A stretch of DNA of 64,000 bases from Planotetraspora phitsanulokensis (GTDB taxonomy: Bacteria; Actinomycetota; Actinomycetes; Streptosporangiales; Streptosporangiaceae): contig NZ_BOOP01000009.1 of assembly GCF_016863295.1 (NCBI RefSeq), forward strand, positions 1 to 64,000, given 5' to 3'. The notes beneath the pieces are model-generated. The model did no database searches. It had not been told where the DNA came from and saw only the letters and a program-made list of their open reading frames with translations. The first letter of the stretch is position 1. Each line of letters starts with the position of its first letter. Positions 32,705 to 57,730 of this stretch are shown in pieces. Both the position numbers and the translations under genes were made by a program.

Positions 32705-32719
32705 TCCCGCTGGCCGGAA
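32705..32719. promoter_or_regulatory. TCCCG palindrome in the fadD3/SDR promoter
   Basis: TCCCGCTGGCCGGAA is the weakest full-length member of the 15-bp motif found upstream of the upper-pathway operons. It is 45 bp from the fadD3 start and 77 bp from the divergent SDR start. Confidence 0.45.
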
Positions 32720-32795
32720 CCGCTCCCCCGCGCCGGGACGCCCGGCCGTACCCTCCGAGGGATCCTTCTCCTCGACCCCTCTCCGGGAGGCCCAT

Positions 32796-33563
32796 GTGGA
32801 CGTGACGGCGGACTACGGCGGCCGGGCGGTCCTGGTGACCGGCGGCACCAAGGGCATCGGATTCGTGATCGCGGAGAGGTTCCTCGCCGCGGGCGCGGAG
32901 GTCGTGGTGGGCGGGCGCGGCGAGCCCGAGGTCCTGCCCGCCGCCGGCGGCAGGACGGCCCGTTTCGTCTCCGCCGACATCCGCGACGCCGGGGCCGCCG
33001 CCGGCCTGGTGGAGGAGGCGGTCGGGCATCTCGGCCGGCTCGACGTGCTCGTCAACAACGCCGGCGGTTCGCCTCCCGCGGACGCGGGGACCGTCTCGCC
33101 GCGATTCGTCGAGAAGGTCGTGGACCTCAACCTGCTCGCGCCGTTCTACGTGGCGCAGCCGGCCAACAAGGTCATGCGGGAGCAGGAGACCGGCGGCTCG
33201 ATCATCAACATCGGCAGCGTCGCCGCCGTCGACCCCCAGCCGGGCATGGCGGCCTACTCGGCGGCCAAGGCCGGCCTGCTCGTGCTCACCAGGGCCCTCG
33301 CGCTCGAATGGTCGCCGAAGGTGCGGGTCAACCACATCACCACCGGCCTCATCCGGACGGAGTCCGCCGCCTGGGCGTACGGCGAGGACGGCGGCGCCGC
33401 CGTCGCGGAGCTGATCCCGATGGGGCGCATGGCGGTGCCCGCCGACGTGGCGAACACCTGCCTCTACCTGGCGAGCGACCTCGCCTCCTACATCACCGGG
33501 GCGGACATCCCGGTGCACGGCGGAGGCGAGGTCCCGGCCCGTTACGTGCTGACGCGTAACTGA
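32796..33563 (+). CDS. Short-chain dehydrogenase/reductase
   Basis: The GTG at 32796 has GGGAGG 5 bp upstream; another GTG six bases later is possible. The 255-residue SDR shows TGGTKGIGFVIAERFLAAGA, NNAGGS and YSAAKAG, with a C-terminal ASYITGADIPVHGGGEV. It is divergent from fadD3 and likely oxidises a hydroxyacyl intermediate of steroid catabolism; it does not map clearly to a named Mycobacterium gene. Its 3' end overlaps the convergent MaoC-type gene by 22 bp. Confidence 0.8.
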   Translation: MDVTADYGGRAVLVTGGTKGIGFVIAERFLAAGAEVVVGGRGEPEVLPAAGGRTARFVSADIRDAGAAAGLVEEAVGHLGRLDVLVNNAGGSPPADAGTVSPRFVEKVVDLNLLAPFYVAQPANKVMREQETGGSIINIGSVAAVDPQPGMAAYSAAKAGLLVLTRALALEWSPKVRVNHITTGLIRTESAAWAYGEDGGAAVAELIPMGRMAVPADVANTCLYLASDLASYITGADIPVHGGGEVPARYVLTRN

Positions 33564-34247
33564 GCGCGCCCGGCGGCCAGCACAGGCGTGCCGTTCACCG
33601 CCGCCTCGAAGAGCACGTCCTCACCGCGGCCCGCCTGTTCCCATCCCCGCACGTCCAGCCGGTCGCCGGGGAAGACCGGGGAGGCGAACCTGCCCTCCAG
33701 CTCGACCAGGTCGGCCGGGTGCGCACCCACCGCCGCGGCCAGCGGCAGCGTCACCGCGGCCAGCGTGCACAGGCCGTGCATGAACGGCCTCGGCATCCCG
33801 GCCGCCTTCGCCGCCTCCGGGTCGATGTGCATGGCGTGCCGGTCGCCGAGCAGGCGGTACAGCGCGGGCGACGAAGAACTCGCTCTCCACCTCGACCTCG
33901 AAGATCGCGGCGCTGCCCTTGTCCCAGACGTGCGCGACGTGCGAGGCCATCGTCAGCTCGCCCGCGGGAGGCAGCGGCCGCAGCACCCGCAGCCGCTGCG
34001 ACGCGTGCATCGTGGTCCTGATGTCGAACGCGCCCAGCGACCCGAGGGCGTCCGGCGCCCACTGCGCCTTCGTCAGCGCGAACGTGGGCAGCGCACGCAG
34101 CCGCTTCTCGAAGACGAGGTCCAGGTCCGTCGGCGCGGCGCCGACCGCGAGCGCGTAGAGGATCACGTCGCGCTCGTCGTAGGCGGCCGTGCGCCTCCCG
34201 AGGTCGCGGCCGATCCACTGACCCGCGCCGGGCCCGTTCCGGCTCAC
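33542..34247 (-). pseudogene. MaoC-type 2-enoyl-CoA hydratase, frameshifted
   Basis: Two reading frames together make one double-hotdog hydratase. Frame one starts at GTG 34247 (overlapping the upstream fadE stop) and carries the N-terminal hotdog, with TMHASQRLRVLRPLPPAGELTMAS, up to VESEFFVARA. Frame two carries LYRLLGDRHAMHIDPEAAKAAGMPRPFMHGLCTL, the hydratase 2 active-site motif with Asp and His. The switch occurs near 33861-33870 in the run AGCGCGGGCG, so one base is extra or two are missing. This is either a sequencing error in GC-rich DNA or a recent inactivation. The intact protein would be about 235 residues and hydrate side-chain enoyl-CoA made by the adjacent FadE pair. Confidence 0.75.
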
Positions 34248-35365
34248 GGGGCCGCCGTCCCGGAGGCGAGCACGGCGCCGAGCCTGGCCAGGTCGGCGCT
34301 GGGCCCGCCCAGGGTGCCGGAGATCTGCCGCGCCCACAGGAAGTGCCGGTGCACGGGATAGTCGACGTCGACGCCGATTCCGCCGTGAAGGTGCTGCACC
34401 CGGTGCGCCACGGTCAGCCCGGCCTCGCCGGCCCACCACTTCGCGACCAGCACGGCCGCCTCGGCGCCTTCCTCAGCACCGAGAGCGGTGACGGCCTGCC
34501 ACAGGCACACGCGCATGGCGTCGATGTCGATGTAGCAGTCGGCGAGCTGGTGCTGCACCGCCTGGAAGGTCGCAAGCGGGCGGCCGAACTGCCTGCGCGC
34601 GCTGAGATGGGTCACCGCGTGGCGCAGCGCGCCCTGGGCGACGCCGAGCTGGACCGCCGCCAGGGCGACGGCGGCGCGGTGAAGGGTCTCCCGGAGGGCG
34701 CCGCCGCCCGGCACGCCGACGGCCGTGGCGGACGCGCCGGTCAAGGTGAGATGGCCGCCGCGGTCGTGACTTGTGGTCTCCACGCGATCCCAGGCGCCCC
34801 CCTCCGGGCCGGTGGGGTCGTCGGAGACGACCAGGAACAGGCCGGGCCCGGTCTCGGCCGTCGCGGAGACCAGCACGCCGACCGCGCCGAAGGGCGACGG
34901 GACGGCGGCCTTCACACCGGTCAGCCGCCACGCGTCGCCGTCCCGCCGGGCCACACAGCCCGGCTCGGCCGGATCGGGCGCGCCGAACTCCTCCAGCGCC
35001 ACGGTGAGCCGCAGCGAGCCCTCAGCCACGCCGGGTAGCAGGCTCTCGCGCTGCTCCGCCGTACCGTGCCGGGCGACCGCGAGCGCGGCGACCGCGGACG
35101 GCCACAGCGGGACGGGCGCAACGGCACGGCCCTGCTCCTCCAGCAGGACGCACAGGGCGCCGAGTCCCAGCCCGGCCCCGCCCGCCTCCTCCGGCAGCGC
35201 GATGCCGAGCAGGCCGGTACGGCCCAGCTCCGCCCACAACTCCTCGTCGATCCCCGTGGAGGTGCCCTCGACCAGGCGGACACGATCGGTGCGCGCACGG
35301 TCGCTGAAGATCTTGCCCGCCAGCTCGCGGACCGCCTCGAGCTCGTCGTCCAGAGTGAAGTCCAT
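34244..35365 (-). CDS. fadE28: Acyl-CoA dehydrogenase, FadE28-like (ChsE1 type)
   Basis: The ATG at 35365 shares a base with the preceding stop (TGATG) and gives 373 residues of the small, divergent FadE class. C-terminal motifs include ARRQFGRPLATFQAVQHQLADCYIDIDAMR and QHLHGGIGVDVDYPVHRHFLWARQISGTLGG. Together with the following-named full-length FadE it should form an alpha2beta2 dehydrogenase like FadE28-FadE29, which oxidises the three-carbon cholesterol side chain of 3-oxo-pregnene-carboxyl-CoA. Its stop overlaps the start of the MaoC hydratase. Confidence 0.8.
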   Translation of the reverse strand: MDFTLDDELEAVRELAGKIFSDRARTDRVRLVEGTSTGIDEELWAELGRTGLLGIALPEEAGGAGLGLGALCVLLEEQGRAVAPVPLWPSAVAALAVARHGTAEQRESLLPGVAEGSLRLTVALEEFGAPDPAEPGCVARRDGDAWRLTGVKAAVPSPFGAVGVLVSATAETGPGLFLVVSDDPTGPEGGAWDRVETTSHDRGGHLTLTGASATAVGVPGGGALRETLHRAAVALAAVQLGVAQGALRHAVTHLSARRQFGRPLATFQAVQHQLADCYIDIDAMRVCLWQAVTALGAEEGAEAAVLVAKWWAGEAGLTVAHRVQHLHGGIGVDVDYPVHRHFLWARQISGTLGGPSADLARLGAVLASGTAAP

Positions 35366-36528: not shown

Positions 36529-36558
36529 GGTCCGCTCTCCTCCTCGGTGGCCGTAGGT

Positions 36559-38220
36559 CTAGATCCCTGGCAGGAAGCGCTGACGGCCGGCGGAGGCGAA
36601 CTCCGCCCGCAGCGCGGCCCTGTCCTGATCGGTCAGCAGGGTGTACTCGGGACCGCCGCGGCCCGCCCACCGGTAGACCTGGTCGCCGGTCCGCCAGCCG
36701 TCGTGCCGCATCTCCTTCTTGCGGAGCTTCCCCGAGCCGGTCGCCGGCAGCGCGTACGAGACCCGGACGAAGCGCGGCGCACCCTTGGCGCCCAGGTCCG
36801 CCTGCCCCGCCAGGAAGCCGGCCAGCCGGAGGTCCTCGAAGGAGGTCTCGCCGGCCACCTCGATCGCGGCCATCACCTGGTCGCCGGACCGGGGGTCGGG
36901 CACCGCGAACACGGCGGCGGCCACGATCCGCGGATGGCGGCGCAGGACGCGCTCGGTCAGCAGCGCGGAGACGTTCTCGCCGTCCACCCGGATCCAGTCG
37001 CCGGAACGACCGGCGAAGTAGACGTAGCCCTCCTCGTCGGCGTAGCCGAGGTCACCGGTCCAGTACCAGCCGTGGCGGACCCGCTCCGCGTCCGCCGCCT
37101 CGTTCTTGTAGTAGCCCTCGAACCTCGCCGCGCCGTCGACGTCCACGATCTCGCCGATGGCCTCCTCGGCGTTGGTCACCCGCCCGTGCTCGTCGAGCAG
37201 CGCCGGCGGACGCGTGTGCCTCGTCTCCGGGTCGACGATCCTGACCCCGCCGTGCGCCGGCCGTCCCAGCGCGCCCGCGGGAGCCTCCGGCACCGGCCTG
37301 ATCATGCCCGCGCCCTCGCTCGACCCGTAGCCCTCGAGCAGCCTGCAGCCGAAGCGGCGCAGGAACGCGGCCTGGTCCTCCGGCGACGCCTCCGTCCCGA
37401 AGGCGTGCGTGAGCGTGTTGTCCGCGTCTCCGGGGTCCGCCGGAGTCGCCAGGACGTACGCGATCACCTTGCCGACATAGGTGAAGAACGTCGCACCGTA
37501 GAAGCGCACGTCGGGCAGGAAGCCGGACACGGAGAACCGGGGTGTCAGCGTGACGGTCGCGCCAGCCGCCAGCGACGGGGCCCACAGCGCCATCACCGCG
37601 TTGCCGTGGAACAGGGGCATGCAGCAGTACGTGACGTCGTGCCGCCGGACGTCGTATTTCGCGGAGTTGGCGTAGGCCAGCCCGGTGAGCCTTCCCTGCG
37701 AGCATCTGGCCGCCTTCGAGGCTCCGGTCGTGCCCGAGGTGAACAGCAGCAGCAACTGCGTCCCGGCGGTGATCTCCGGGTCGCGGGACGGCTCGCACGC
37801 GTGCGCGGCCACCGCCTCGGCGTACTCCTCGCCGTCGACGAGCAGGAAACGGTCACGGGGCACGCCGACGTCGAGACCGTCGAGCAGTTTCAGACCGGCC
37901 TCGTCGGTGACGATGAACTGCGGGTCGGCATGCCTGACCTCCTCCTCCAGGACCGAGCCCCGGTGGGTGGGGTTGACGCCGACGATCGTCGCGCCGCTCA
38001 GCGCGGCCGCGCCGAGCCAGAAGACGTACTCCGGCACGTTGTCGAGCAGGACCCCGATGTGGAAGGGGCCGTCGATCCGCGACTCGCGGGCCAACCGGGC
38101 GCGGGCGGCGCTCGCGCGGACCACCTCGTCCCAGGTCCAGGTGCGCTCGCGGGTCCGCAGCCCGGCGTGACCGTCGCCGGATCGGGCGAGCAGCAGGTCG
38201 GCGATCGTCTCGTGTCGCAC
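36559..38220 (-). CDS. Acyl-CoA synthetase, FadD17-like
   Basis: The 553-residue adenylate-forming enzyme has LLLLFTSGTTGASKAARCS, LLEGYGSSEGAGM, the hinge TGDLGYADEEGYVYFAGRSGDWIRVDGENV and a C-terminal lysine region ATGSGKLRKKEM. Overall resemblance is to FadD17 (Rv3506), a steroid-regulon ligase of undefined substrate, probably a short steroid side-chain or ring-derived carboxylate. It is first in the operon with the FadE28/29-like pair. Two TCCCG-type motifs lie upstream. Confidence 0.78.
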   Translation of the reverse strand: MRHETIADLLLARSGDGHAGLRTRERTWTWDEVVRASAARARLARESRIDGPFHIGVLLDNVPEYVFWLGAAALSGATIVGVNPTHRGSVLEEEVRHADPQFIVTDEAGLKLLDGLDVGVPRDRFLLVDGEEYAEAVAAHACEPSRDPEITAGTQLLLLFTSGTTGASKAARCSQGRLTGLAYANSAKYDVRRHDVTYCCMPLFHGNAVMALWAPSLAAGATVTLTPRFSVSGFLPDVRFYGATFFTYVGKVIAYVLATPADPGDADNTLTHAFGTEASPEDQAAFLRRFGCRLLEGYGSSEGAGMIRPVPEAPAGALGRPAHGGVRIVDPETRHTRPPALLDEHGRVTNAEEAIGEIVDVDGAARFEGYYKNEAADAERVRHGWYWTGDLGYADEEGYVYFAGRSGDWIRVDGENVSALLTERVLRRHPRIVAAAVFAVPDPRSGDQVMAAIEVAGETSFEDLRLAGFLAGQADLGAKGAPRFVRVSYALPATGSGKLRKKEMRHDGWRTGDQVYRWAGRGGPEYTLLTDQDRAALRAEFASAGRQRFLPGI

Positions 38221-38250
38221 TGGTGTGGCTCTCCCCTTGGTCCGGGCCGA

Positions 38251-38265
38251 CGTTAGTCAGCGGGA
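38251..38265. promoter_or_regulatory. TCCCG motif half-site upstream of the FadD17-like gene
   Basis: Read on the minus strand this is TCCCGCTGACTAACG, matching the first ten positions of the motif consensus but lacking the second arm. It lies 31 bp upstream of the start codon, 20 bp from the full palindrome. Confidence 0.35.
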
Positions 38266-38284
38266 CGCGCCTCGGGCCGTCGAG

Positions 38285-38299
38285 TCCCGCTGACCGGGA
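38285..38299. promoter_or_regulatory. TCCCG palindrome upstream of the FadD17-like operon
   Basis: TCCCGCTGACCGGGA is palindromic except for one central pair and lies 65 bp upstream of the start codon of the FadD17/FadE29/FadE28/MaoC operon. Confidence 0.65.
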
Positions 38300-38310
38300 A
38301 GGACCCTTGG

Positions 38311-38356
38311 AGGTCGGAGGTCGGAGGTCGGAGGTCAGCCGGTCAGCCGGTCAGCC
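38311..38356. repeat. Two adjacent microsatellites spanning the SDR stop codon
   Basis: AGGTCGG is repeated three times at 38311-38331, followed by GGTCAGCC three times at 38333-38356. The last copies run through the stop codon of the SDR gene on the minus strand, so slippage could change the end of that protein. Confidence 0.7.
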
Positions 38357-39112
38357 GAAGAACGCCTGCCCGCCGTCCAGCGGCACGGTGGCGCCGGTCA
38401 GGTACCGCATGGCCGGGCCGACGATCGCGACGACCGCCCGGCCGATGTCCTGCTCGCAGTCGCCGATGTAGCCGAGCGGGATCGTCCTGCGGAACTCCTC
38501 CGCCTCCTCCGGGTTGGTCTCCGTCCACCACTTCAGGCCGGGGGACAGCGCGTGCGGGGCGATGGAGTTGGCGCGGATGCCGTCGGGCCCCCATTCGGCC
38601 GCGGCCGTGCGCGTCAGCGAGCGGAGCGCCTGCTTGGCCGCGGCGTAGGCGCCGTAGGTGGTGGGATCCCATCGGACCATCGCCGAGGTGACGAGGTTGA
38701 CGATGCTGCCGCCGCCGCGCCGCTTCATGTGGGGGTGGCACGCCTTCATGAAGGCGAACGCGGCGAAGGGGCCGCTGCGGAAGCCCTTCTGGAAGGCCGC
38801 GTCGCTCATGGACAGCAGCGGGCCGTACGCGCCGGAGTAGGCGTTGTTGACGAGGATGTCCACCCCGCCGAACCGCTCCGCCACCTGGTCGACCACCGCG
38901 GGGATCGTCTCCGTGACGCTGACGTCGCACTGGAAGGGCTCGGCCGTCGCGCCGCGTTCGCGGACGAGTTCGCAGGTCGCCTCGAGCTTCGCCATGGTGC
39001 GCCCGACCACCGCGACGGACGCCCCCTCGGAGGCGAGGGCGAGCGCGATGCCCTGGCCCACCCCCTGACCCGCACCGGTGACGATCGCGACCTGTCCGTC
39101 CAGACTTCCCAT
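38351..39112 (-). CDS. Short-chain dehydrogenase/reductase
   Basis: The ATG at 39112 gives a 253-residue SDR starting MGSLDGQVAIVTGAGQGVGQGIA. It has the NNAY variant of NNAG and YAAAKQALRSLTRTAAAEWG with the catalytic Tyr and Lys. The C-terminus ends in TGATVPLDGGQAFFG, so it is complete despite the repeat at its stop. It is divergent from an acyl-CoA ligase across a perfect TCCCG palindrome, which places it in the same regulon. The substrate is unknown. Confidence 0.8.
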   Translation of the reverse strand: MGSLDGQVAIVTGAGQGVGQGIALALASEGASVAVVGRTMAKLEATCELVRERGATAEPFQCDVSVTETIPAVVDQVAERFGGVDILVNNAYSGAYGPLLSMSDAAFQKGFRSGPFAAFAFMKACHPHMKRRGGGSIVNLVTSAMVRWDPTTYGAYAAAKQALRSLTRTAAAEWGPDGIRANSIAPHALSPGLKWWTETNPEEAEEFRRTIPLGYIGDCEQDIGRAVVAIVGPAMRYLTGATVPLDGGQAFFG

Positions 39113-39183
39113 TCGGGCTCCCCGTTTCCGCCGTGTGCTCGACCGTAATAGTGGTGTCGCCCCGCCCTGGGCCGGAAGGGCCG

Positions 39184-39198
39184 TCCCGGTGACCGGGA
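39184..39198. promoter_or_regulatory. Perfect TCCCG palindrome in a divergent promoter
   Basis: TCCCGGTGACCGGGA is a perfect inverted repeat around one central base. It is 72 bp from the SDR start and 62 bp from the ligase start, so one site could serve both directions. Confidence 0.7.
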
Positions 39199-39259
39199 GA
39201 CGACCCTCGGCAGACGCTCCCCCGGCGGTCACAATGGGCGCCCGAGAGAGAGGGCGCAG

Positions 39260-40926
<1,667 letters not shown>

Positions 40927-40930
<4 letters not shown>

Positions 40931-41841: not shown

Positions 41842-41842
41842 G

Positions 41843-42454
41843 TCACCCGGAGTTCGACCTCGGGGCGAGCAGCAGCCGGCAGGCGATCCTGATGTCGCTC
41901 TCGGTGTCGGGGATCGACATCCGCCCGTTGAGGCTCGACTGCAGCACGCCGTACCAGCACTGCATGAGCAGGCGGATCAGCGTGACGTCGAGGGCGGTGG
42001 GCTCGCCGATCCCGAGCGCCCGCTGGATGATCTCGCTGAAGGTGCCGTCGATCCGCCCGGCGTCGGCCACCGCGGCCGCGTTCGCCGCGTTCGCGGACTG
42101 GAGCATCGCGACCGCGAGCCTGGGCCTGCGCAACAACTGACGGCTGGCCTGCACCAGCACGTCGGCGACCGCGTCCTCAGGGCTCGTGCCCGGCTCCGGG
42201 GGCCGGATGCCCTCGTTGAAACGGTCGATCTGCTCGGCCAGCACGGCCGTGAACAGATGGGTCTTCGAGGGGAAGTAGCGGTACAACGTCGCGATCGCGA
42301 CGCCCGCGGCCTTGGCCACCTCGTGCATCTGCATGCGCTCGAGGCCCCGGTCGGCCCCGATCCGCGCGGCGGCCCGGAGGATGCGCAGATGCCGGGCCCG
42401 CTGCTCCGGGGAGCTGGGCTCCGCCGGCGCTCTGACCTCGGCGATTCTCGGCAC
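41843..42454 (-). CDS. KstR-like TetR regulator
   Basis: I start at GTG 42454 (GGGGG just upstream), giving about 203 residues; a TTG at 42481 is the alternative. The HTH MQMHEVAKAAGVAIATLYRYFPSKTHLFTAVL closely resembles KstR of mycobacteria (MRAVADRADVAVGTLYRYF), and the C-terminal domain follows KstR over LLRRPRLAVAMLQSANAANAAAVADAGRIDG. KstR represses upper cholesterol genes and responds to 3-oxo-cholestenoyl-CoA-type ligands. A copy of the TCCCG palindrome lies 69 bp upstream, suggesting autoregulation or cross-regulation. No mycobacterial KstR motif was found nearby. Confidence 0.78.
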   Translation of the reverse strand: MPRIAEVRAPAEPSSPEQRARHLRILRAAARIGADRGLERMQMHEVAKAAGVAIATLYRYFPSKTHLFTAVLAEQIDRFNEGIRPPEPGTSPEDAVADVLVQASRQLLRRPRLAVAMLQSANAANAAAVADAGRIDGTFSEIIQRALGIGEPTALDVTLIRLLMQCWYGVLQSSLNGRMSIPDTESDIRIACRLLLAPRSNSG

Positions 42455-42522
42455 GGTTCCCCCTGCTCGGTTCTGTCGCAACGACCATACACAGCGCCAC
42501 CGGCGGTGACGCGAGCCGTTCG

Positions 42523-42537
42523 TACCGGTGAGTGGGA
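42523..42537. promoter_or_regulatory. TCCCG-type palindrome upstream of the KstR-like gene
   Basis: TACCGGTGAGTGGGA differs from the consensus at the second base only in its left arm. It is 69 bp upstream of the regulator start codon and lies between the regulator and the 3' end of hsaA. Confidence 0.55.
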
Positions 42538-42547
42538 TCGGCGTCCG

Positions 42548-43714: not shown

Positions 43715-43796
43715 CGTGTCGATCTCCATAGTCGCGTTCGTCCGGGCGTACCCGTCCATGATGGTGCGTCGCCCCGATGCCCGCATGTCAGGGCCA

Positions 43797-43811
43797 TCCC
43801 GGCCAATGGGA
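43797..43811. promoter_or_regulatory. TCCCG-type palindrome between hsaA and kshA
   Basis: TCCCGGCCAATGGGA keeps both outer arms of the motif, with a degenerate centre. It is 83 bp from hsaA and 70 bp from kshA. Confidence 0.5.
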
Positions 43812-43880
43812 CTGGCGGCGGGCCGGGCGGATCCGGCTTGGCATGCTGGGATCACGCGCGTCCTGAAGGGATGGGTCAAC

Positions 43881-46082: not shown

Positions 46083-46092
46083 CCATCCTCCG

Positions 46093-46248: not shown

Positions 46249-46249
46249 C

Positions 46250-47728: not shown

Positions 47729-47730
47729 GC

Positions 47731-48645
47731 TCAGGACCTGGGCACGAACGCGGCCAGCGGCTCGGAGCCGGACCAGTCGTGGCCCCAGTAGCTGTCGGCG
47801 GCGATCTCCTCGGCCGTGTAGTACGTCTCGTCGACGAGCATGCCGCCGGTGCCGTATTCGAGGTCCCAGCCGCCCGGCGCGCGGACGTAGAAGGAGACCA
47901 TCTTGTCGTTGGTGTGCCGGCCCAGGGTCGAGGAGATGGAGAAGCCCAGCTGGCTGACCCTGTCGAGCGCCCTGCCGACCGCGTCCAGGCTGTCGACCTC
48001 GATCATGAGGTGCACCAGACCGGGGTCGCCGTTGTGCGCCGCCGGGCAGATCGCGAGGCTGTGGTGCCGCTGGTTGATCCCCATGAAGCGCATGCGCCGG
48101 AAGGGCGGCTTCCGCCGGCCCACCTTCATCGCCCCGCGCGGCAGGAAGCCGAGCACCTCGGTGTAGAAGGAGACCGTCTCCTCCATCGCGATGGTGGGCA
48201 GCACCACGTGGCCCATCCCCTGCGGGCCGGTCACGAACCGCTGCCCCCTGCCCGTGATCACGGGGCTGTGGTCGAGCACGGGGCCGAAGTAGACCTCGAC
48301 CGGGATGCCGGCGGGGTCGGTGAACGCGATCACCTGCTCGGCCGCGCGGTCGATGGCCTCCTGCTCGGAGAGCACCTTGACCGGCGTCCCGTGCGCCTCG
48401 ACGGCGCGGCCGACCGCGGCGAGGGCGAACTGGTCACGGACCTCCCACCCGACGGCCAGCACCCGGTCGGAGTCCCCGGGGAGCACGATGAGCCGCGCCT
48501 GCCGTTCGTCCATCCGGAGGTAGAGGCCGTCCGGCTCGGGTCCGGAGCCCTCCGCGAAGCCGAGCCCGTCGATCACGAGCTCGCGCCAGCGACCGATGTC
48601 ACGCGTCTGGACCTTGAGATAGCCCAGTCCTCGGATCTGCGTCAC
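47731..48645 (-). CDS. hsaC: HsaC, extradiol dioxygenase cleaving 3,4-DHSA
   Basis: The GTG at 48645 gives 304 residues, the usual type I extradiol dioxygenase size. The Fe(II) ligands are His146 (GMGHVVLPT), His212 (GLVHLMIEVD) and Glu263 (DLEYGTGG). It cleaves the ring-A catechol made by HsaAB in the meta position. A 96-nt longer frame upstream has no relation to the family. It is first in a transcription unit with a TCCCG palindrome 70 bp before the start and is followed by the KstD-like flavoprotein. Confidence 0.93.
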   Translation of the reverse strand: MTQIRGLGYLKVQTRDIGRWRELVIDGLGFAEGSGPEPDGLYLRMDERQARLIVLPGDSDRVLAVGWEVRDQFALAAVGRAVEAHGTPVKVLSEQEAIDRAAEQVIAFTDPAGIPVEVYFGPVLDHSPVITGRGQRFVTGPQGMGHVVLPTIAMEETVSFYTEVLGFLPRGAMKVGRRKPPFRRMRFMGINQRHHSLAICPAAHNGDPGLVHLMIEVDSLDAVGRALDRVSQLGFSISSTLGRHTNDKMVSFYVRAPGGWDLEYGTGGMLVDETYYTAEEIAADSYWGHDWSGSEPLAAFVPRS

Positions 48646-48714
48646 CTGTCCACCAACCTCCCGGGCCGTCGTCCACCCAAAAGTGACAGACAGTCCGCCC
48701 GGCCGCCTGGAGGC

Positions 48715-48729
48715 TCCCGCTGAGTGAGA
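48715..48729. promoter_or_regulatory. TCCCG palindrome upstream of hsaC
   Basis: TCCCGCTGAGTGAGA matches the consensus with one arm base changed and lies 70 bp upstream of the hsaC start codon. Confidence 0.6.
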
Positions 48730-48751
48730 GTCCCCGGCCACGGTGGCGGGT

Positions 48752-48773
48752 GGGGCGGCCTCCCGGCCGCCCC
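48752..48773 (-). terminator. Hairpin after the glycine/glutamine repeat protein gene
   Basis: GGGGCGGCC (48752-48760) pairs perfectly with GGCCGCCCC (48765-48773) around a 4-bp loop TCCC. It lies immediately after the stop of the gene that ends at 48778. Confidence 0.65.
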
Positions 48774-48777
48774 AGGC

Positions 48778-49929
48778 TCAGATCGAGCCGCGGGTGCGAG
48801 CGGGCAGCCCCTCCTGCTCCGCGATCGGACCCCACAGTTCGACGAACGCGGACTTGGCCTTGGTGGCGCTTTCAGACGCCGCGTTTCCGAGCTTGTAGTC
48901 GGCGTCTCCCGTGGTCGGCCCGGTACAGCCGTTGGCCTGGTACTTCTTCGCCCATTTCAGGTACGCCGCGTCGGCCCGCTGCGAGGCCACGAGCGCGTCC
49001 ACGAGACGTTGCCTCAGCGTATAGCCGCGTTCGAGCGCGTCGACCTTCAGCTTCTTCGCCTGCTGGACCTGTTGGGCCCGCTGGTCGGCGGCCTGCTGAA
49101 TCGCCGCGATGCCCTGGTCGGCCTTCGAGCAGGGCGGCCGCATCTGGTTGAGCCCCTGCTGGAGCTTGCCCCGGCTGGGCTTGCTCGCGTCGAGGACCTT
49201 GTCGATCGCCACGGCCTGCTCGTGCGCGCCGCTGCTCTTCGGAGCGGACGGGGACGCGCTGGCGCCGGTCGCACCGGTGCCGCCGACCTTGTCGCCTTTC
49301 AGGCCATAGATCGCGTAGGCGGCCCCGACGCCGATCACGACAGCGGCGGCGATGGCGCCGATCGTCTTCCACGGGACCCCGGTGCCCGTGCCCGGCCGTT
49401 CGGAGGGAGCGCCGCCCGGGGCGGGACCGACCCCACCCGGACCGAATCCATCCTGGCCGAATCCACCCTGACCGAATCCACCCTGATCAAACGCGCCCTG
49501 ATCGAAACCAGTCTGACCGAACGCGCCTGGACCCATCGGAGCCGGGCCCTGCCCGAATCCGCCCTGATCGAATCCGCGCTGACCGAATCCGCCTTGATCG
49601 AATCCGCCCTGATCGAACGCACCCGGCCCCGGACCCTGACCGAACGCACCCGGCCCCGCCGGGCCCTGACCGAATCCGCCCTGACCGAAGCCACCCGGCC
49701 CTGGACCCACCGGACCCGGACCCGGACCCCGCCCGAAGTCCATGGTGTCGCCGACGCCCCGCAAGGCCGTCACATCGCGAACCCACCACTGCCAGTTCGC
49801 CGGGGGCTCCGGCCAGCCCGGACCGGGCCCGGCCCAGTTCGGAGTAGGGATCCAGTCCCTGGGGGGAACCGGCCAACCTGGCGGGGGGTTGAACCGCCAC
49901 TCGGCACCTGGCTGTGGAGGGATGTTCAA
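48778..49929 (-). CDS. Membrane protein with Trp/Pro-rich head and GFDQG/GFGQG repeats
   Basis: The 383-residue protein has four parts. Residues 1-50 are Trp/Pro-rich (PPPGWPVPP, PGPGWPEPPANWQWW), a module seen in actinobacterial membrane proteins. Residues 65-175 are low-complexity repeats of GFGQG, GFDQG and AFGQG. A single membrane segment spans about 189-209 (IGAIAAAVVIGVGAAYAIYG). The remaining 170 residues are helical and charged, with Cys267 and Cys335. An N-in topology with an outside helical domain is likely. It lies between hsaC and the HsaA-like gene on the same strand. No function is known. Confidence 0.8.
   Translation of the reverse strand: MNIPPQPGAEWRFNPPPGWPVPPRDWIPTPNWAGPGPGWPEPPANWQWWVRDVTALRGVGDTMDFGRGPGPGPVGPGPGGFGQGGFGQGPAGPGAFGQGPGPGAFDQGGFDQGGFGQRGFDQGGFGQGPAPMGPGAFGQTGFDQGAFDQGGFGQGGFGQDGFGPGGVGPAPGGAPSERPGTGTGVPWKTIGAIAAAVVIGVGAAYAIYGLKGDKVGGTGATGASASPSAPKSSGAHEQAVAIDKVLDASKPSRGKLQQGLNQMRPPCSKADQGIAAIQQAADQRAQQVQQAKKLKVDALERGYTLRQRLVDALVASQRADAAYLKWAKKYQANGCTGPTTGDADYKLGNAASESATKAKSAFVELWGPIAEQEGLPARTRGSI
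49440..49735. repeat. In-frame tandem repeats encoding G-F-x-Q-G units
   Basis: The DNA repeats the pattern GAATCCACCCTGACC and GAATCCGCCCTGATC (plus-strand reading) with a 15-bp period. It encodes about 18 pentapeptide units in the membrane protein. The GC skew and the conserved third positions suggest recent expansion. Confidence 0.7.
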
Positions 49930-50019
49930 AGCCGCTCACCTAACGGGCAACAATGTTGACCGTTGGGAGTTTAGTCCTCATTCACCGTGCCTAGATGATC
50001 GGCGGGAGTGCCCTCGGCT

Positions 50020-51204
50020 TCAGATCATCGAACGCATCGGGCCCTGGGGCGGCTCGATGCCGAGTTGCGTCAGCGCCGAGACGTGGAAGACCGCGCCCGG
50101 CACGTGGATCGCATGCGTCAGGCCCACGTGCGCGTCACGCCAGAAGCGCTGGATCGGATTGTCCACACGCATGGCGTTTCCGCCGGACCGGTTGACGATC
50201 TCGTCGACCGCGCGGACCGCCCGCCAGGCCGCCTGGACCTGGGTGCGCCGGCTCACCGCCCGCTCGTCGAAGGTGACCTCGCGGCCCGCCGCGACGAGGT
50301 CGTACATCCGCGAGGCGTTGTCGAGCAGCGCCGACCGCGCGGCGGCGATGTCCGCCGCGGCCTCGCTGATGGCGTAGAGCACGTACGGATCGTCCTTGAT
50401 CTTGGTGCCGGTGATCTGCACGCGGCCCTTCTGGTAGGCCAGATGGTGCGCGAGGGCGCCCTCGGCCATGCCGATCACGGACGCGGTGATGCCGAGGGGG
50501 AACGCGACTGAGAACGGCAGGTGGTAGGTCGGGTTGGTCAGCCCCGCCTCCCTGGCCGCGCTGCCGTCCACGACCTTCGAGAACGGGATGACCCGGTAGT
50601 CGGGGACGAACGCGTCCCTGACGACGATGTCCTTGCTGCCGGTGCCACGCAGGCCGACCACGTTCCACGAGTCCTCGACGATCTCGTAGTCGGACCGCGG
50701 GAGGATCAGGTGCAGCGACTCCGGGGGCTTGGCGACATTGCCCTCCTCGTCGCCGAGCATGCCGCCGAGGAAGATCCAGTCGCAGTGGTCGGTGCCGGAG
50801 GAGAACTGCCAGCGCCCGTTGAAGACGTAGCCCCCGTCGACCGGGCGGGCGACGCCCATGGGCGCGTACGGCGAGGCGATCCAGGTGTCCTGGTTCTCCC
50901 CCCAGATCTCCTGCTGGACCCTGGGGTCGGCGTAGGCCATCTCCCAGGGGTGCACGCCGACGACCCCGGCGACCCAGCCCGTCGATCCGTCCAGACTGGC
51001 GATCTTCATGACGGTCTCGGCGAACTCGCGCGGGTGGAACTCGAAACCGCCGTGGATCCGCGGCTGGAGCATCCGGATGACTCCGGCCTCGCGCAGCACT
51101 TTGCCGGCCTGGTCGTCCAGCCTGCACAGGGTCTCGTTCACGGAGCCGAGCGCGCTGATCTCCTCGGCCCGCCGGGTGATCGCCTCGAGTACCGGGTTGC
51201 CCAT
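50020..51204 (-). CDS. HsaA-like flavin-dependent monooxygenase (paralogue)
   Basis: The 394-residue protein shares the HsaA/4-HPA hydroxylase family layout, including SLDGSTGWVAGVVGVHPWEMAY, FSSGTDHCDWIFLGG, LPRSDYEIVEDSWNVVGLRGTGSKDIVVRDAFVPDYR and WRDAHVGLTHAIHV. Its C-terminus lacks the EFGL ending seen in hsaA at 42548. It follows hsaF by 8 bp and closes the hsaE-G-F operon. It presumably uses FMNH2 from HsaB and may hydroxylate a related phenolic, or a later ring intermediate. Confidence 0.82.
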   Translation of the reverse strand: MGNPVLEAITRRAEEISALGSVNETLCRLDDQAGKVLREAGVIRMLQPRIHGGFEFHPREFAETVMKIASLDGSTGWVAGVVGVHPWEMAYADPRVQQEIWGENQDTWIASPYAPMGVARPVDGGYVFNGRWQFSSGTDHCDWIFLGGMLGDEEGNVAKPPESLHLILPRSDYEIVEDSWNVVGLRGTGSKDIVVRDAFVPDYRVIPFSKVVDGSAAREAGLTNPTYHLPFSVAFPLGITASVIGMAEGALAHHLAYQKGRVQITGTKIKDDPYVLYAISEAAADIAAARSALLDNASRMYDLVAAGREVTFDERAVSRRTQVQAAWRAVRAVDEIVNRSGGNAMRVDNPIQRFWRDAHVGLTHAIHVPGAVFHVSALTQLGIEPPQGPMRSMI

Positions 51205-51212
51205 GGCTTCTC

Positions 51213-52235
51213 TCACTTCTTCGCCGCGAGGGCGACTGCGATCTCGATGAGCTGGTCTTCCTGGCCGCCGACGAGCTTGCGCCGCCCGGCCTCGAGCAGG
51301 ATCTCCGCGCCGGGCACGCCGTACTTCTTCGCCTGGCGGTCGGCGTGCTTGAGGAAACTGGAGTACACGCCGGTGTAGCCCATGGTGAGCGCCATCCGGT
51401 CGAGCAGGCACTCGCCGTCCATGATCGGGCGGACGACGTCCTCGGCGGCATCGATGATCTTGATGGTGTCGATGCCGGTGCGGATGCCGAGCCTCTCGGC
51501 GGCGGCGGCGAACGCCTCGACCGGCGTGTTGCCCGCCCCCGCGCCGAACCGGCGGGTCGAGCCGTCGATCTGGAGCGCGCCGGCCCGGACCGCGAGGATC
51601 GAGTTGGCGACGCCGAGGCCGAGGTTCTCGTGACCGTGGAAGCCGACCTGGGCGTCGGAGCCGAGCTCGGCCACGAGCGCCGCGACCCGGTCGGAGGTCT
51701 GCTCCATGATCAGGGCGCCCGCCGAGTCGACGACGTACACGCACTGACAGCCCGCGTCCGCCATGATCCGGGCCTGCCGGGCGAGGACCTCGGGCGGCCG
51801 GCTGTGCGCCATCATGAGGAACCCGACCGTCTCCAGCCCCAGCTTCCTGGCCAGGCCGAAATGCTGCACCGCGATGTCGGCCTCGGTGCAGTGCGTGGCG
51901 ATCCTGCAGATGCTCGCGCCGTTGTCGGCGGCCTCCCGGATGTCGTCCTGGATCCCGAGACCGGGCAGCATGAGGAAGGCGATCTTCGCGTTCTTCGCGG
52001 TCGCCACGGCGGCCTTGATGAGCTCCTGCTCGGGGGTGAGGCTGAAGCCGTAGTTGAACGACGAGCCGCCGAGCCCGTCGCCGTGCGTCACCTCGATCAC
52101 CGGCACGCCCGCGTCGTCGAGCGCGGCGACGACGGACTGGACGTGCTCGGCGGTGAACTGGTGCTGCTTGGCGTGGGAGCCGTCGCGCAGCGACGAGTCG
52201 GTGACCCGGATGTCCAGGTCGGCGCTGTAGGGCAT
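51213..52235 (-). CDS. hsaF: HsaF, 4-hydroxy-2-oxovalerate/hexanoate aldolase
   Basis: The 340-residue DmpG-type aldolase shows LRDGSHA, with Arg17, Asp18 and His21, and the metal-binding [15 protein letters not shown], with His200 and His202. It splits 4-hydroxy-2-oxohexanoate into pyruvate and propionaldehyde; the aldehyde is channelled to HsaG. It lies between hsaG and the HsaA-like gene, with short gaps. Confidence 0.93.
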
Positions 52236-52247
52236 GGGGTCGGTCTC

Positions 52248-53156
52248 CTAATGGCTGAGAGTCCCTGGTGACTGGGTCCGCGCGAAGCCCTCGCCGACCT
52301 TGGTGGCGGCGGCCGTCATGATGTCGAGATTGCCGGAGTAGGGCGGCAGGAAGTCCCCCGCGCCCTCGACCTCGAGGAACACCGCGACCCTGGCGAGCCC
52401 GCCGCTCACCGGGGTCGGATCGTCGAACTGCGGCTCCGCGCGCAACCGGTAGCCGGGCACGTACGACGCCACGGCCGCGACGACGTCCTTGATCGAGGCG
52501 GCGATCGCGTCCCGGTCGGCGTCGGCGGGGATCGCGCAGAAGACGGTGTCCTGCATGAGCATCGGGGGCTCGGCCGGGTTGAGGATGATGATCGCCTTGC
52601 CCCTCCCCGCTCCGCCGATCGTCTCGATGCCACGGCCGGTGGTGCGGGTGAACTCGTCGATGTTGGCGCGGGTACCCGGGCCGGCCGACGGGGAGGCGAC
52701 GCTGGCGACGATCTCGGCGTAGGAGACCTCGGTGACCCGCGAGACGGCGTGGACCACGGGGATCGTCGCCTGTCCGCCGCAGGTGATCAGGCTGACGTTC
52801 GGCGCGTCGAGGTGGGCGCCCAGGTTGACCGCGGGCACCACCGCGGGCCCGATGGCGGCGGGGGTCAGGTCCACGGCCCGGATGCCGAGCGCCTCGTACT
52901 TGGGCGCGTTCTCCCTGTGCACGTACGCCGAGGTCGCCTCGAAGACGATGTCCGGCAACTCCCGCTGGTTCAGCAGCCACTCGACGCCCTCGGCGGACGC
53001 GGCGAGGCCGGCGGAGTCCGCCCGTTTCAGCCCGGGGCTGTCGGCCTCGACGCCGATCATCCAGCGCGGCTCGATGAGCTCGGAACGGAGCAGTTTGTAC
53101 ATCAGGTCGGTCCCGATGTTGCCCGAGCCGACGATCGCGGCGGTCGCCTTGGTCAC
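52248..53156 (-). CDS. hsaG: HsaG, acylating acetaldehyde/propionaldehyde dehydrogenase
   Basis: A GTG start gives 302 residues with the NAD motif GSGNIG (10-15) and catalytic Cys126 in [10 protein letters not shown]. It converts the aldehyde received from HsaF into propionyl-CoA (or acetyl-CoA) in a channelled complex. It is followed 12 bp later by hsaF. Confidence 0.93.
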
Positions 53157-53169
53157 TGCTGTCTCACTC

Positions 53170-53955
53170 TCATTCGAATCGAGCGCTCACGGACCCGAGC
53201 CCGGCGAACTCGGCCCGGAAGACGTCGCCGGGGCGCACGTCGACGGCCCTGGTGCACGAGCCGGGAAGGATGACGTGCCCGGCCTCGAGCTGCACTCCGA
53301 AGGAGGCGACCTTCCTGGCCAGCCAGGCCACGGCGACGGTGGGGTCGCCGAGGACGGCGTTGGTGTTGCCCCGCGCGATCTCCGTGCCGTCCTGGTACAG
53401 CACGGCCTCGACGTCGGCGGGGTCCAGGTCGGCCGGGCTCACCCTGGCGGCGCCGAGCAGCACCCCGGCCGAGGACGCGTTGTCGGCGATGGTGTCCGCC
53501 AGCCCGATGCGCCAGTCCTTGACCCGGCTGTCGATCAGCTCGAGGCTCGGCACGACATACTCGGTCGCGGCGAGCACGTCCGCCTCGGTGCATCCCTCAC
53601 CGGGGAGGCTCGACCCGAGCACGTACCCGATCTCGACCTCGATCCGGGGGTGGCAGTACCGGCCCGCCTCGACGGGCACGTCCTCCGACAACACCATCGT
53701 GTCGAGCAGGTGGCCGTAGTCGGGCTCGTCGACGCCCATCATCCGCTGCATCACCGGGGACGACAGCCCCACCTTGTGCCCGTACACCCGGGCGCCCTCG
53801 GCGAGGCGGCGCCGGATGTTGATGAGCTGGATCTCGTAGGCGTCCACCACGTCGATGCCCGGGTAGGCGTCGGTCAGCGGCTCGATCGGCACCCGGTCCC
53901 GCTCCGCCGCCCACAGCCGTCCGGCCACGGACGCGCGCTGCGCCGCCTCCAGCAT
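53170..53955 (-). CDS. hsaE: HsaE, 2-hydroxyhexa-2,4-dienoate hydratase
   Basis: The 261-residue MhpD-type hydratase carries the metal-binding acidic residues in [11 protein letters not shown] and the [26 protein letters not shown] segment. It hydrates the dienoate released by HsaD to 4-hydroxy-2-oxohexanoate. It is first in the hsaE-G-F-HsaA-like operon, with a TCCCG palindrome 70 bp upstream. Confidence 0.92.
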
Positions 53956-54024
53956 CCAGTCCTCCCGCGATCGCCCCTGCGAATCTCAAAGGTTCCAGCC
54001 GGGGCTCCCGGCCGGTGCCCGCTT

Positions 54025-54039
54025 TCCCGCTCAGTGGGA
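54025..54039. promoter_or_regulatory. TCCCG palindrome upstream of hsaE
   Basis: TCCCGCTCAGTGGGA, flanked by a further T and A, is palindromic at 8 of 9 symmetric pairs over 17-18 bp. It lies 70 bp upstream of the hsaE start codon in a 108-bp gap and is one of the best copies of the motif. Confidence 0.7.
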
Positions 54040-54063
54040 ACCGCCCGGCGTCCGGTGGCGGGT

Positions 54064-55098: not shown

Positions 55099-56744
55099 CT
55101 CTTGGACGCCGCGTGCCGCGCGGCGATGTACCCGAAGACGATCGAGGGGCCGATCGTGGCGCCCGGGCCGGCGTACTCGTTACCCATGACGGAGGCCGAG
55201 GTGTTGCCCGTGGCGTACAGGCCCTCGATCACCGACTCGTCGGCGCGCAGCACCCGGCTGTGCTCGTCGCAGACCAGCCCGCCCTTGGTGCCCAGGTCGC
55301 CGGCCTCGATCCGGAAGGCGTGGAACGGCGCCTTGCCGATCACGTCGAGGTTCGGGTTCTTCAGCGTGGGGTCGCCGTAGTACCGGTCGTACGCGCTGTC
55401 CCCGCGGCCGAAGTCCTCATCCCTGCCGGCCTCGGCGAACCGGTTGAACCGCTCCACGGACTCGGCCAGCGCTCCGGCGGGCACCCCGATCTTGCCCGCC
55501 AGCTCCTCGATGGTCCCGGCCTCGAACGCCGTGCCCTGCTCGTAGTACCCCCTCGGGATCGGCGCCCCCGGGAGGATCTGGGCGAACGGGTAGCGCTCCC
55601 TGGCCTTGGCGTCCATCACGAACCACGCCGGAACATGCCCTCCGGCCAACTGGTCGTGGACGAAATTGACGTACGGCGACGACTCGTTGGTGAAGCGCCT
55701 GCCCTCCGACGACACGATGATCGACGGCGGGATGCACCGCTCGGACACCAGCGGGATGACCGCACCCGCCGGATGCCGGACGGCGGGCATCCACCAGGCG
55801 TCGTCCATCAGGCCGAGGGCGGCGCCGAGCTTCTCACCGGCCAGGATGCCGTCGCCGGTGTTCTCCCTGGCGCCCATGCCGAAGTCGTCCCGGCCGCCCT
55901 CGGGCAGGTATTTCGCGCGCATCTCCGGGTTGTGGTCGAACCCGCCCGTCGCCAGCAGCACGCCGTGCCTGCCCCGGATCCGGACCTCCGCGCCGTCACG
56001 CCGGGCGACGATGCCGGTGACGGCTCCGGCGTCGTCGGTGACCAGGTCCGTCATGGGCGTCTTCAGCCAGAGCGGGACGCCCGCGTCCTTGACCGCCATC
56101 CGCAACCGCGCGACCAGCGCCCGTCCCCCGGTGGCCATGTGCCTGCGGCGCACGAGGTTGGACGAGACCCGCCAGGCCGCGACCACCGAGGCCCAGCGGC
56201 CCCGCCAGGTGCGCTTCACCATGGCCAGGTCGTGGTAGTCCTTGGCGGTGATCCACAGCCCGAGGGGGCCCTTCATGCTGTTGGGACGCTGGTGCCGCTC
56301 GTCCTCGCCGAGCTCGCGGGTGTCGAACGGCAGGGCCTCGATCGACCGCCCCATCGGCCGGCCGCCCTCCAGTTCGGGATGGTAGTCCGCATAGCCCTTC
56401 ACCCAGAAGAAGCGCATCCACCTGCTCCTGCAGAGCAGCTCCATCGCCGCTGGGCCCTCGTCGACGAACGCGTCCAGCCGCGCGGCCGGGACCCGTCCCT
56501 CGGTCAGCAGGTCGAGGTAACGGCGGATCGACTCACGGCTGTCGTCGTGGCCCTTCGCCCGCAGGGCGGGATTGTTCGGGATCCAGATCCCGCCGCCGGA
56601 GATCCCGGTGCTGCCGCCGTACTTCCCGCCCTTCTCGACCACGACGGCGGACAGCCCGCTGTCCCGCGCGGTCAGTGCGGCGGCCATGCCGCCGGCGCCG
56701 CTGCCGACGATGACGAGATCGAACTCGTGGTCCCACTCGCTCAC
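55095..56744 (-). CDS. kstD: KstD, 3-ketosteroid delta-1-dehydrogenase
   Basis: The GTG at 56744 overlaps the hsaD stop and gives 549 residues. Motifs are the FAD fold VGSGAGGMAAALTARDSGLSAVVVEK, the YADYHPELEGG region with Tyr121 equivalent to active-site Tyr119 of Rhodococcus KstD1, and the C-terminal NEYAGPGATIGPSIVFGY with Tyr524 and Gly528, matching catalytic Tyr487 and Gly491. It introduces the 1-ene in ring A, enabling ring-B opening after 9-alpha-hydroxylation. Confidence 0.93.
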   Translation of the reverse strand: MSEWDHEFDLVIVGSGAGGMAAALTARDSGLSAVVVEKGGKYGGSTGISGGGIWIPNNPALRAKGHDDSRESIRRYLDLLTEGRVPAARLDAFVDEGPAAMELLCRSRWMRFFWVKGYADYHPELEGGRPMGRSIEALPFDTRELGEDERHQRPNSMKGPLGLWITAKDYHDLAMVKRTWRGRWASVVAAWRVSSNLVRRRHMATGGRALVARLRMAVKDAGVPLWLKTPMTDLVTDDAGAVTGIVARRDGAEVRIRGRHGVLLATGGFDHNPEMRAKYLPEGGRDDFGMGARENTGDGILAGEKLGAALGLMDDAWWMPAVRHPAGAVIPLVSERCIPPSIIVSSEGRRFTNESSPYVNFVHDQLAGGHVPAWFVMDAKARERYPFAQILPGAPIPRGYYEQGTAFEAGTIEELAGKIGVPAGALAESVERFNRFAEAGRDEDFGRGDSAYDRYYGDPTLKNPNLDVIGKAPFHAFRIEAGDLGTKGGLVCDEHSRVLRADESVIEGLYATGNTSASVMGNEYAGPGATIGPSIVFGYIAARHAASKR

Positions 56745-57610
56745 TGGGCGTCCTTCCTCGTCAGGAAGCCGAGCACGACGCTCTCCCAGGCGGCCTTCTG
56801 TTCGATCATGACCCAGTGCCCGCAGTCGGGGAAGACGTGCAACTCGGCGTCGGGGATCGTGCGCATCGGCAGGATCGCCATGTCGACCGGGCTCACCCGG
56901 TCGTCGCGCCCCCACGTGATCAGTGTTCTGGCCTTCAGCCGGTGCAGCATCGCCCAGTACGGCGGGGCGTCCGAGCGGGCCATGGCGGCCGCGCGGGCGG
57001 CGGACGCGGCCCTGCCGTACATGCGGCGGGCGCTTGCCAGCGTGTCCGGGTCGGTGGCCTGGGTCCAGCGCTCCTCGATCAGCTCCTCGGTGACCAGCGC
57101 CGGATCGTGGACCATCGAGTAGAGCCACCGGACGAGCGCCTCCCTGGTGGGGTTCTCGGTGAACTCCATGAGGAGGTTGATGCCTTCGCCCGGGCCCGGG
57201 CTGAACAGGTTCCTGCCGATGCCGCCGATGGTGACGAGCCCGCGCACCCGATCGGGGTGGGCGATCGCCACCTGGGCGGCCACGACGCCGCCCATCGAAT
57301 TGCCGATCACGTCGACCTGCTGGAGCCCGAGCCCGTCGAGGAAGCGGATCACCGCGCCGTTCGCCGCCGCCATGGGGTGCTCGCCGGTCGGGTCGCTGAC
57401 CCCGAACCCGGGGAACTCGAGGACCAGGCAGCGGAAGTGGTCGGCGAACACGGGCAGGTTGCCGCGGAAGTTCCGCCAGCCGGTGACCCCCGGACCCGAG
57501 CCGTGCAGGAGCAGCAGGGGCGGGCCCTCACCCGCCTCGTGGTACCGCAGCACTCCGTGGTCGGTCGTGAGCTCGCGCGCCGTCGACTCATAGGTCAGCT
57601 CTGTGGTCAT
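56741..57610 (-). CDS. hsaD: HsaD, meta-cleavage product hydrolase
   Basis: The ATG at 57610 gives a 289-residue alpha/beta hydrolase with Ser105 (GNSMGG), Asp236/237 (GRDDRVSP) and His265 (DCGHWV). It hydrolyses the HsaC product 4,9-DSHA to HIP and 2-hydroxyhexa-2,4-dienoate. It is first in the operon hsaD-kstD-kshB and is divergent from hsaB across a 212-bp gap with two TCCCG-type motifs. Confidence 0.93.
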   Translation of the reverse strand: MTTELTYESTARELTTDHGVLRYHEAGEGPPLLLLHGSGPGVTGWRNFRGNLPVFADHFRCLVLEFPGFGVSDPTGEHPMAAANGAVIRFLDGLGLQQVDVIGNSMGGVVAAQVAIAHPDRVRGLVTIGGIGRNLFSPGPGEGINLLMEFTENPTREALVRWLYSMVHDPALVTEELIEERWTQATDPDTLASARRMYGRAASAARAAAMARSDAPPYWAMLHRLKARTLITWGRDDRVSPVDMAILPMRTIPDAELHVFPDCGHWVMIEQKAAWESVVLGFLTRKDAQ

Positions 57611-57680
57611 GTCGCCCCAGTCATCGCAATGTCGGCTCCGGGGGAAGGTAATCGACGGCACCGGCCCGTCGTGATGATCA

Positions 57681-57695
57681 TCCCGATGAGCGAGA
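57681..57695. promoter_or_regulatory. TCCCG palindrome on the hsaD side of the divergent promoter
   Basis: TCCCGATGAGCGAGA matches the consensus at most positions and lies 71 bp upstream of the hsaD start codon. Confidence 0.55.
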
Positions 57696-57715
57696 CCCTC
57701 GGGGCCCGCCGCCGC

Positions 57716-57730
57716 GTCCACTCAACGGGA
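57716..57730. promoter_or_regulatory. TCCCG motif on the hsaB side of the divergent promoter
   Basis: On the minus strand it reads TCCCGTTGAGTGGAC, sharing TCCCGnTGAGTGG with the consensus. It is 93 bp upstream of hsaB and 21 bp from the hsaD-side site. Confidence 0.5.

Follow-up and report, generated by a model that had tools for sequence, protein, structure and literature searches.

Which protein reads the palindrome that recurs between the steroid-degradation genes of Planotetraspora phitsanulokensis? We addressed this question in a 64,000-nucleotide stretch of the genome (contig NZ_BOOP01000009.1, positions 1 to 64,000; hereafter the window), which encodes an IclR-family regulator (58409–59296, minus strand) and a KstR3-like TetR regulator (41843–42454, minus strand). 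A first-pass annotation of this DNA had called the palindrome undescribed for steroid genes. It is already in print: the palindrome is the Lcin1 motif, TCCCGGT[C/G]ACCGGGA, found in Nocardioides simplex VKM Ac-2033D before cholate-cluster genes (Shtratnikova et al. 2020, PMC7593942). In that work, Lcin1 genes are induced by lithocholate, and the regulator, then unknown, was suggested to be the KstR3 ortholog KR76_18060 because its gene is lithocholate-induced. Computation on the window and on related genomes gives the sites, their conservation, their near-fixed spacing, and a link with IclR. On this basis, the palindrome is probably the operator of the IclR protein, which would act as a steroid-responsive activator of cholate-type operons.

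Lcin1-type sites in the window and in related loci

All ten palindrome sequences listed in the first-pass annotation lie where it placed them. A loose search with TCCCGSTSANYGGGA, allowing up to 3 mismatches, returned 122 window matches against a mean of 81.5 in shuffled sequence, a count that 0 of 100 shuffles reached; at this ratio, the loose pattern alone is merely mildly enriched. A sharper matrix, trained on 165 sites that all came from genera other than Planotetraspora, scored at least 18 bits at 5 window positions, compared with a mean of 0.13 and a maximum of 2 in 30 Markov simulations, bearing out the earlier view of a real palindrome before the named operons.

With offsets counted in nucleotides from the site to the start of a −10-like hexamer, minus-strand sites precede casI (38285–38299, 22.2 bits; TAACGT at 30), hsaC (48715–48729, 20.6 bits; CACTTT at 30), hsaEGF (54025–54039, 21.8 bits; AACCTT at 31), hsaD (57681–57695, 22.2 bits; TACCTT at 31), and the KstR3-like TetR gene (42523–42537, 15.4 bits; TATGGT at 34). 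The site at 39184–39198 (20.9 bits) is shared by a divergent pair, a short-chain dehydrogenase/reductase (SDR) gene on the minus strand and casG on the plus strand; CACAAT stands at 32 toward casG, and toward the SDR gene the scripted first choice is TATTAC at 34, with CACTAT at 31 also present. By manual calculation, start codons lie 44 to 92 nt from their sites, with 9 of 12 at 60 to 71, close to the earlier figures of 62 to 83 bp with extremes of 45 and 93.

Three sites have low matrix scores and are weak points of the operator reading. They are a weaker site between the divergent hsaA and kshA (43797–43811, 12.6 bits; CATGCT at 31 toward kshA, and toward hsaA a scripted first choice of CATCAT at 34 with CACCAT also present at 31), a weak and uncertain one in the gap separating an AMP-binding ligase gene from a divergently oriented SDR gene (32705–32719, 11.7 bits; TACCCT at 30 on the plus strand and CACCAT at 31 on the minus strand), and a weak plus-strand site before hsaB (57716–57730, 7.3 bits), which we retained because, in the direction of hsaB, a TAACGT follows at an offset of exactly 31 nt. 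Score alone cannot establish such sites, since three positions within predicted open reading frames (ORFs), 59912, 16111, and 14305, score 14.4, 13.1, and 11.9 bits. The half-site read earlier at 38251 did not hold up as an operator in its own right: it overlaps the TAACGT that follows the 38285 site by 30 nt and is probably the −10 region of casI. Across the whole 9.17 Mb genome, the pattern is matched exactly 7 times, including 3 times within the window; we set aside the other 4 as regulon members, each overlapping a long ORF, although a long ORF is not a proven gene.

To see how widely the sites occur, we used 80 loci fetched by IclR homology, among them loci from Streptosporangiaceae and their kin, Streptomyces, Geodermatophilus, Saccharopolyspora, Nocardioides, and Rhodococcus. 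In these, 183 matches to the starting matrix reached at least 16 bits, compared with a mean of 4.9 and a maximum of 87 for 60 column-permuted matrices. Of these 183 matches, 160 fall in the 300 bp preceding a located gene, and the remaining 23 are all outside such genes, which make up 711,304 of the 1,593,518 bases. With a threshold of 14 bits and a limit of 250 bp upstream, we found sites before hsaD (71/72), hsaE (23/30), hsaC (14/53), iclR (22/80), and hsaB (73/74; judging by distances, mostly in the shared hsaD/hsaB gap), with few or none before kstD (0/70), hsaF (0/45), and kshB (1/69). For kstR3, 55 of 62 loci, a set that includes duplicates, carry an upstream site scoring 13 bits or more. 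Because close relatives and three Planotetraspora are included, the counts over the 80 loci are not independent. Genome G482, which has distant relatives of both regulators (IclR 43%, KstR3 44%), carries sites of 19.3 and 18.1 bits.

In 173 nonredundant sites, base frequencies at positions 1 to 7 are T.99, C.98, C/T, C.99, G/A, mixed (C.51), and T.98, and at positions 8 to 15, C/G, A.97, mixed (G.51), C.96, G 1.0, G/A, G.96, and A.99. This fits the Lcin1 consensus, with positions 6 and 10 looser here. The window and its relatives also resemble N. simplex in the kind of gene set that follows the palindrome, namely orthologs of the cholate cluster together with hsaEGF.

Position of the sites in their promoters

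We next examined the spacing between site and −10 region in a nonredundant set of 78 promoters (hsaD, hsaE, hsaC, and hsaG), from which, within each gene group, promoters with over 80% similarity across the 50 nt following the site had been dropped; an 85% limit kept 173 of 222. A hexamer NANNNT starts 30 to 32 nt after the site in 73 of the 78, and no other single offset exceeds 10. The spacing is thus no artefact of closely related promoters, for it is still there after redundancy removal. The offsets in the window are 30 (casI, hsaC), 31 (kshA, hsaE, hsaD, hsaB), and 32 (casG). At the matching distance for a −35 hexamer (TTGACA), the promoters of the related loci give no signal. With the hexamer assigned to −12 to −7, the site falls at about −57 to −43, which is where an activator would be expected. 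The earlier suggestion that constant spacing marks an activator site accordingly gains ground from 73 of 78 promoters and the missing −35 signal, and the sequences support a regulatory site at a constant place with an activator-like architecture. No −10 spacing appears in the available portion of the Lcin1 paper (PMC7593942).

Some promoters depart from this pattern and weigh against the proposed architecture. The strict form TANNNT at 30 to 32 is found at 39 of 45 hsaD promoters and at none of those of hsaE (0/19), hsaC (0/10), or hsaG (0/4), which have the looser form only. The −10 of kstR3 stands most often at 34 (in 20 of the 55 site-bearing loci), and the 21 iclR-oriented promoters lack the 30-to-32 spacing. 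These 21 were left out of the 78, as were a mixed set (16 promoters, with 5 TANNNT matches at 30 to 33) and the hsaB-oriented promoters, the latter because their best site is in most cases that of hsaD; among the hsaB-oriented promoters, 9 of 63 TANNNT matches are at 30 to 32.

Candidate regulators of the sites

The window IclR protein contains both HTH_IclR (PF09339, 47.5 bits; cut-off 22) and IclR_C (PF01614, 117.1 bits; cut-off 24) domains. The top three loci in the named collection belong to three Planotetraspora species, whose IclR proteins share 96 to 99% identity with it. Its best NCBIfam match is PcaR/PcaU/PobR (TIGR02431), pathway regulators of aromatic acid breakdown; at 114.2 bits against a cut-off of 284.75, it falls outside that curated subfamily. 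The recognition helix LPRST.HRIL is kept in 7 orthologs and in 21 distinct homologs of 43 to 78% identity (43 to 99% overall). It differs in five paralogues (35–39%) of genomes G065, G281, and G301 and in a 37% paralogue of locus L118 that lies beside hsaE, where no 16-bit site was seen.

The sites also resemble known IclR operators as described by Suvorova and Gelfand (2021, PMC8222616), where most follow GKTYCRYW3-4RYGRAMC. Group-1 operators, such as the NdgR/LtbR site KTYCRSMWYSYGRRM, are likewise 15-bp palindromes, and Lcin1-type sites have their core YCR-N5-YGR with C-N7-G spacing, matching the group-1 code at positions 3 (C/T), 4 (C), 5 (G/A), 11 (C/T), 12 (G), and 13 (G/A) (PMC8222616). 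The resemblance stops at the flanks, a point against an IclR operator: in place of the group-1 T before YCR and A after YGR (PMC8222616), our sites have C (.98) and G (.96).

The first-pass annotation had left the IclR and KstR-like proteins as equal candidates. We compared their occurrence across genomes; in the family, the top 10 and 8 candidates in each genome were scored. Among 297 family genomes, 58 have a KstR3-like protein, 60 have the IclR, and 55 have both; in 394 genomes of the class, the numbers at the cut-offs are 14, 16, and 13. All 37 genomes reached via IclR loci have a KstR3-type match, in one metagenome bin just a 33% paralogue. The few genomes with one regulator alone are thus the informative ones. 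Four (G158, G188, G207, and G168) have the IclR (51–57%) without a KstR3 ortholog, their best TetR being a 36 to 40% paralogue, and carry 7, 9, 6, and 9 matches of at least 14 bits in 20 to 40 kb, one of the 9 in G188 sitting inside a gene. By hand count, 17 of these 31 matches have a strict TANNNT at 30 to 32 in one or both directions. Beyond the family, again with no KstR3 ortholog among the candidates scored, G419 has one 21.8-bit site and G663 has sites of 20.7, 16.8, and 14.0 bits; TANNNT stands at 31 from the G419 site and the 16.8-bit site of G663.

In the converse case, G065, G281, and G301 have KstR3 (61–78%) with an unchanged helix-turn-helix, and their best IclR match is just 37 to 40%. 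In these genomes, 8 of the 9 hsaA, hsaB, and kstR3 promoters score below 11 bits; the ninth has a 14.1-bit match in the usual place before kstR3, and a 14.4-bit match lies between hsaB and hsaA in G301. Among the other matches in these 40-kb stretches, we rejected as surviving operators a 16.6-bit match in G281, which is inside a 2957-aa ORF and has flanks very similar to those of an equal-scoring match in G301, and a match of 14 to 15 bits in G065, which is far from the hsa genes. Takeover by a diverged IclR paralogue was likewise set aside: G065, G281, and G301 have 4, 16, and 15 IclR-type matches, and the 5 helices compared from among these all differ. Taken together, the genome comparison favors the IclR protein over KstR3 as the likely binder of the sites.

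Several observations weigh against this assignment. The two regulators nearly always occur together, and the exceptions are few and partly from one genus (G281 with G301; G158 with G188 and G207), so the comparison, though strong, falls short of proof. The G207 assembly has a completeness of 87% and that of G168 a contamination of 7%, and the lack of KstR3 in G419, G431, and G663 refers to 8 scored candidates at 1e-40. In G431, the only sites are of 15.2 to 16.9 bits, away from clear steroid genes. G065, G281, and G301 also lack hsaD, so their KstR3-only clusters are reduced ones; G229 and G300 lack hsaD as well, yet keep the IclR and the sites. Two of the 21 helix-keeping homologs have no convincing site: in G126, with the IclR (72%) and hsaA and without a KstR3 ortholog, there are just 13-to-16-bit matches off the iclR and hsaA promoters, and in G231 (contig C111), where an IclR of 58% with the same helix stands beside a KstR3 of 51%, the matches are one of 14.3 bits 10 kb away and one of 15.2 bits inside iclR itself. 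Finally, the regulator gene induced in N. simplex is the KstR3 ortholog (PMC7593942).

This last point belongs to the published guess, which would make the sites operators of a KstR3-like TetR repressor released by steroid-CoA. That kstR3 so often carries the site and that KstR3 is found in almost every genome with an IclR ortholog also fit this explanation, and KstR and KstR2, themselves TetR repressors, govern regulons with palindromic sites before steroid-degradation operons, as here. Their motifs differ from Lcin1-type sites (that of KstR is TnnAACnnGTTnnA), and the window TetR falls below the NF033703 cut-off for KstR (112 versus 280 bits). Against a KstR3 operator, sites persist in G158, G188, G207, G168, G419, and G663, where no KstR3 ortholog was found, are gone from eight of nine promoters where KstR3 has an unchanged helix-turn-helix, and lie upstream of the core-promoter contacts of RNA polymerase, which is unusual for a simple repressor; we regard a KstR3 operator as unlikely. 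It is a slim prospect that IclR binds the sites but represses, or works both ways, given that they stand outside the core promoter, at a near-fixed distance from a −10 with no −35 signal. The constant distance would also suit a fixed promoter layout in which the palindrome is recognized by a sigma factor and is no operator at all. This we consider highly improbable, because the palindrome is of operator type and lies at about −50, a single site serves divergent genes, and the sites are tied to IclR presence; we know of no sigma factor that reads DNA at about −50.

We therefore return to an IclR activator. If NANNNT is the −10 box, one or more IclR dimers would bind at about −57 to −43, and the ligand would be a pathway steroid, probably a bile-acid-type acid or CoA ester. 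Ligand-bound IclR could then recruit RNA polymerase to weak promoters that have a −10 and no −35, so that the cholate-type operons would be switched on together. Because kstR3 carries the same site, we propose KstR3 as a target rather than the binder; it would belong to the same regulon, possibly in feedback. More tentatively, and as a suggestion that falls somewhat short of probable, a single IclR-type master activator may control bile-acid-type steroid breakdown across Actinomycetia from near −50 on −35-less promoters, also switching on KstR3 in a two-regulator feedback circuit, unlike the repressor-only control of cholesterol breakdown by KstR and KstR2. An IclR activator reading Lcin1 would correct the published KstR3 guess and give strain engineers a target for deletion or overexpression, as well as a possible part for sensing bile acids.

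The main text of the Lcin1 paper never uses the word IclR; the authors mention KR76_18040 as a possible ortholog of a regulator, casA (PMC7593942). KR76_18040 is probably the N. simplex IclR gene, given that kshA and iclR are neighbors in relatives, G397 and G523 among them. In the openly licensed papers and listings searched, no IclR protein is assigned to the Lcin1 motif or to a cholate-type cluster, and the openly licensed literature searched assigns no regulator to Lcin1 or actinobacterial bile-acid breakdown beyond the KstR3 guess. In Rhodococcus ruber Chol-4, an iclR gene is annotated in the steroid cluster, with no role given in the available portion of the paper (PMC6498646).

Genes of the cluster and further regulators

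Judged by its gene content, the cluster is cholate-type and not a sterol upper pathway; such a cluster was reportedly described in Rhodococcus by Mohn et al. in 2012. Both CoA synthetases exceed their NCBIfam cut-offs: CasI, a steroid-22-oyl-CoA synthetase (36559–38220, minus strand; NF052587, 987.6 bits, cut-off 900), and CasG, a steroid-24-oyl-CoA synthetase (39260–40930, plus strand; NF052580, 896.6 bits, cut-off 750). So does HsaA (42548–43729, minus strand, start estimated; NF045629, 661.8 bits, cut-off 450), and KshA is assigned by Pfam (43881–45032, plus strand, start estimated; PF19298, PF00355). The assignment also rests on hsaB-, hsaC-, hsaD-, kshB-, kstD-, and hsaEGF-like genes. Of these, the HsaC-like extradiol dioxygenase (47731–48645, minus strand, start estimated; NF045631, 318 bits, cut-off 450), the HsaD-like hydrolase (56741–57610, minus strand, start estimated; NF045632, 274.7 bits, cut-off 400), and the HsaB-like flavin reductase (57823–58398, plus strand; NF045630, 192.3 bits, cut-off 230) stay under their cut-offs. 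In the hsaE-hsaG-hsaF-like set (51213–53955, minus strand), identified by NCBIfam as hydratase, acetaldehyde dehydrogenase, and aldolase, the hydratase does so too. The SDR dehydrogenase lies at 38351–39112 (minus strand, start estimated; PF13561, PF00106). These assignments replace the earlier label of upper-pathway steroid operons, since the ligases are CasG (called fadD3 before) and CasI (the FadD17-like ligase) and many targets are ring-cleavage hsa genes.

In the gap between hsaC and hsaF (about 48778–51200), two ORFs tried had no NCBIfam match, one of them also no Pfam match. The matching stretch of locus L075 encodes a second HsaA-like protein (41%), so the ORFs tried are probably in wrong frames.

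The KstR3-like protein matches PF00440 and PF17925, and a short inverted repeat, GTCGTTGCGA(C), which overlaps the kstR3 −10/start region in several close relatives, in loci L051 and L052 and also in L155–L158, L160, and L161, could be its own operator. Another KstR-type TetR, which shares about 37% identity with the one in the window, is encoded at G000:C23:220565-221110, with equivalents in relatives, including G001 of the same genus, where neither a KstR3 nor an IclR ortholog was found. A diverged IclR paralogue (35–38%) is divergent to an hsaEGF-like set (51–69%) with no motif in L118 (7737–8429), G281:C25, and G301:C4 (L280, L281), which points to a different IclR regulon. Extra IclR copies (47–66%) with nearby motif sites, on contigs C4 and C22 of G060 and contig C8 of G087, suggest duplicated regulons in one genome.

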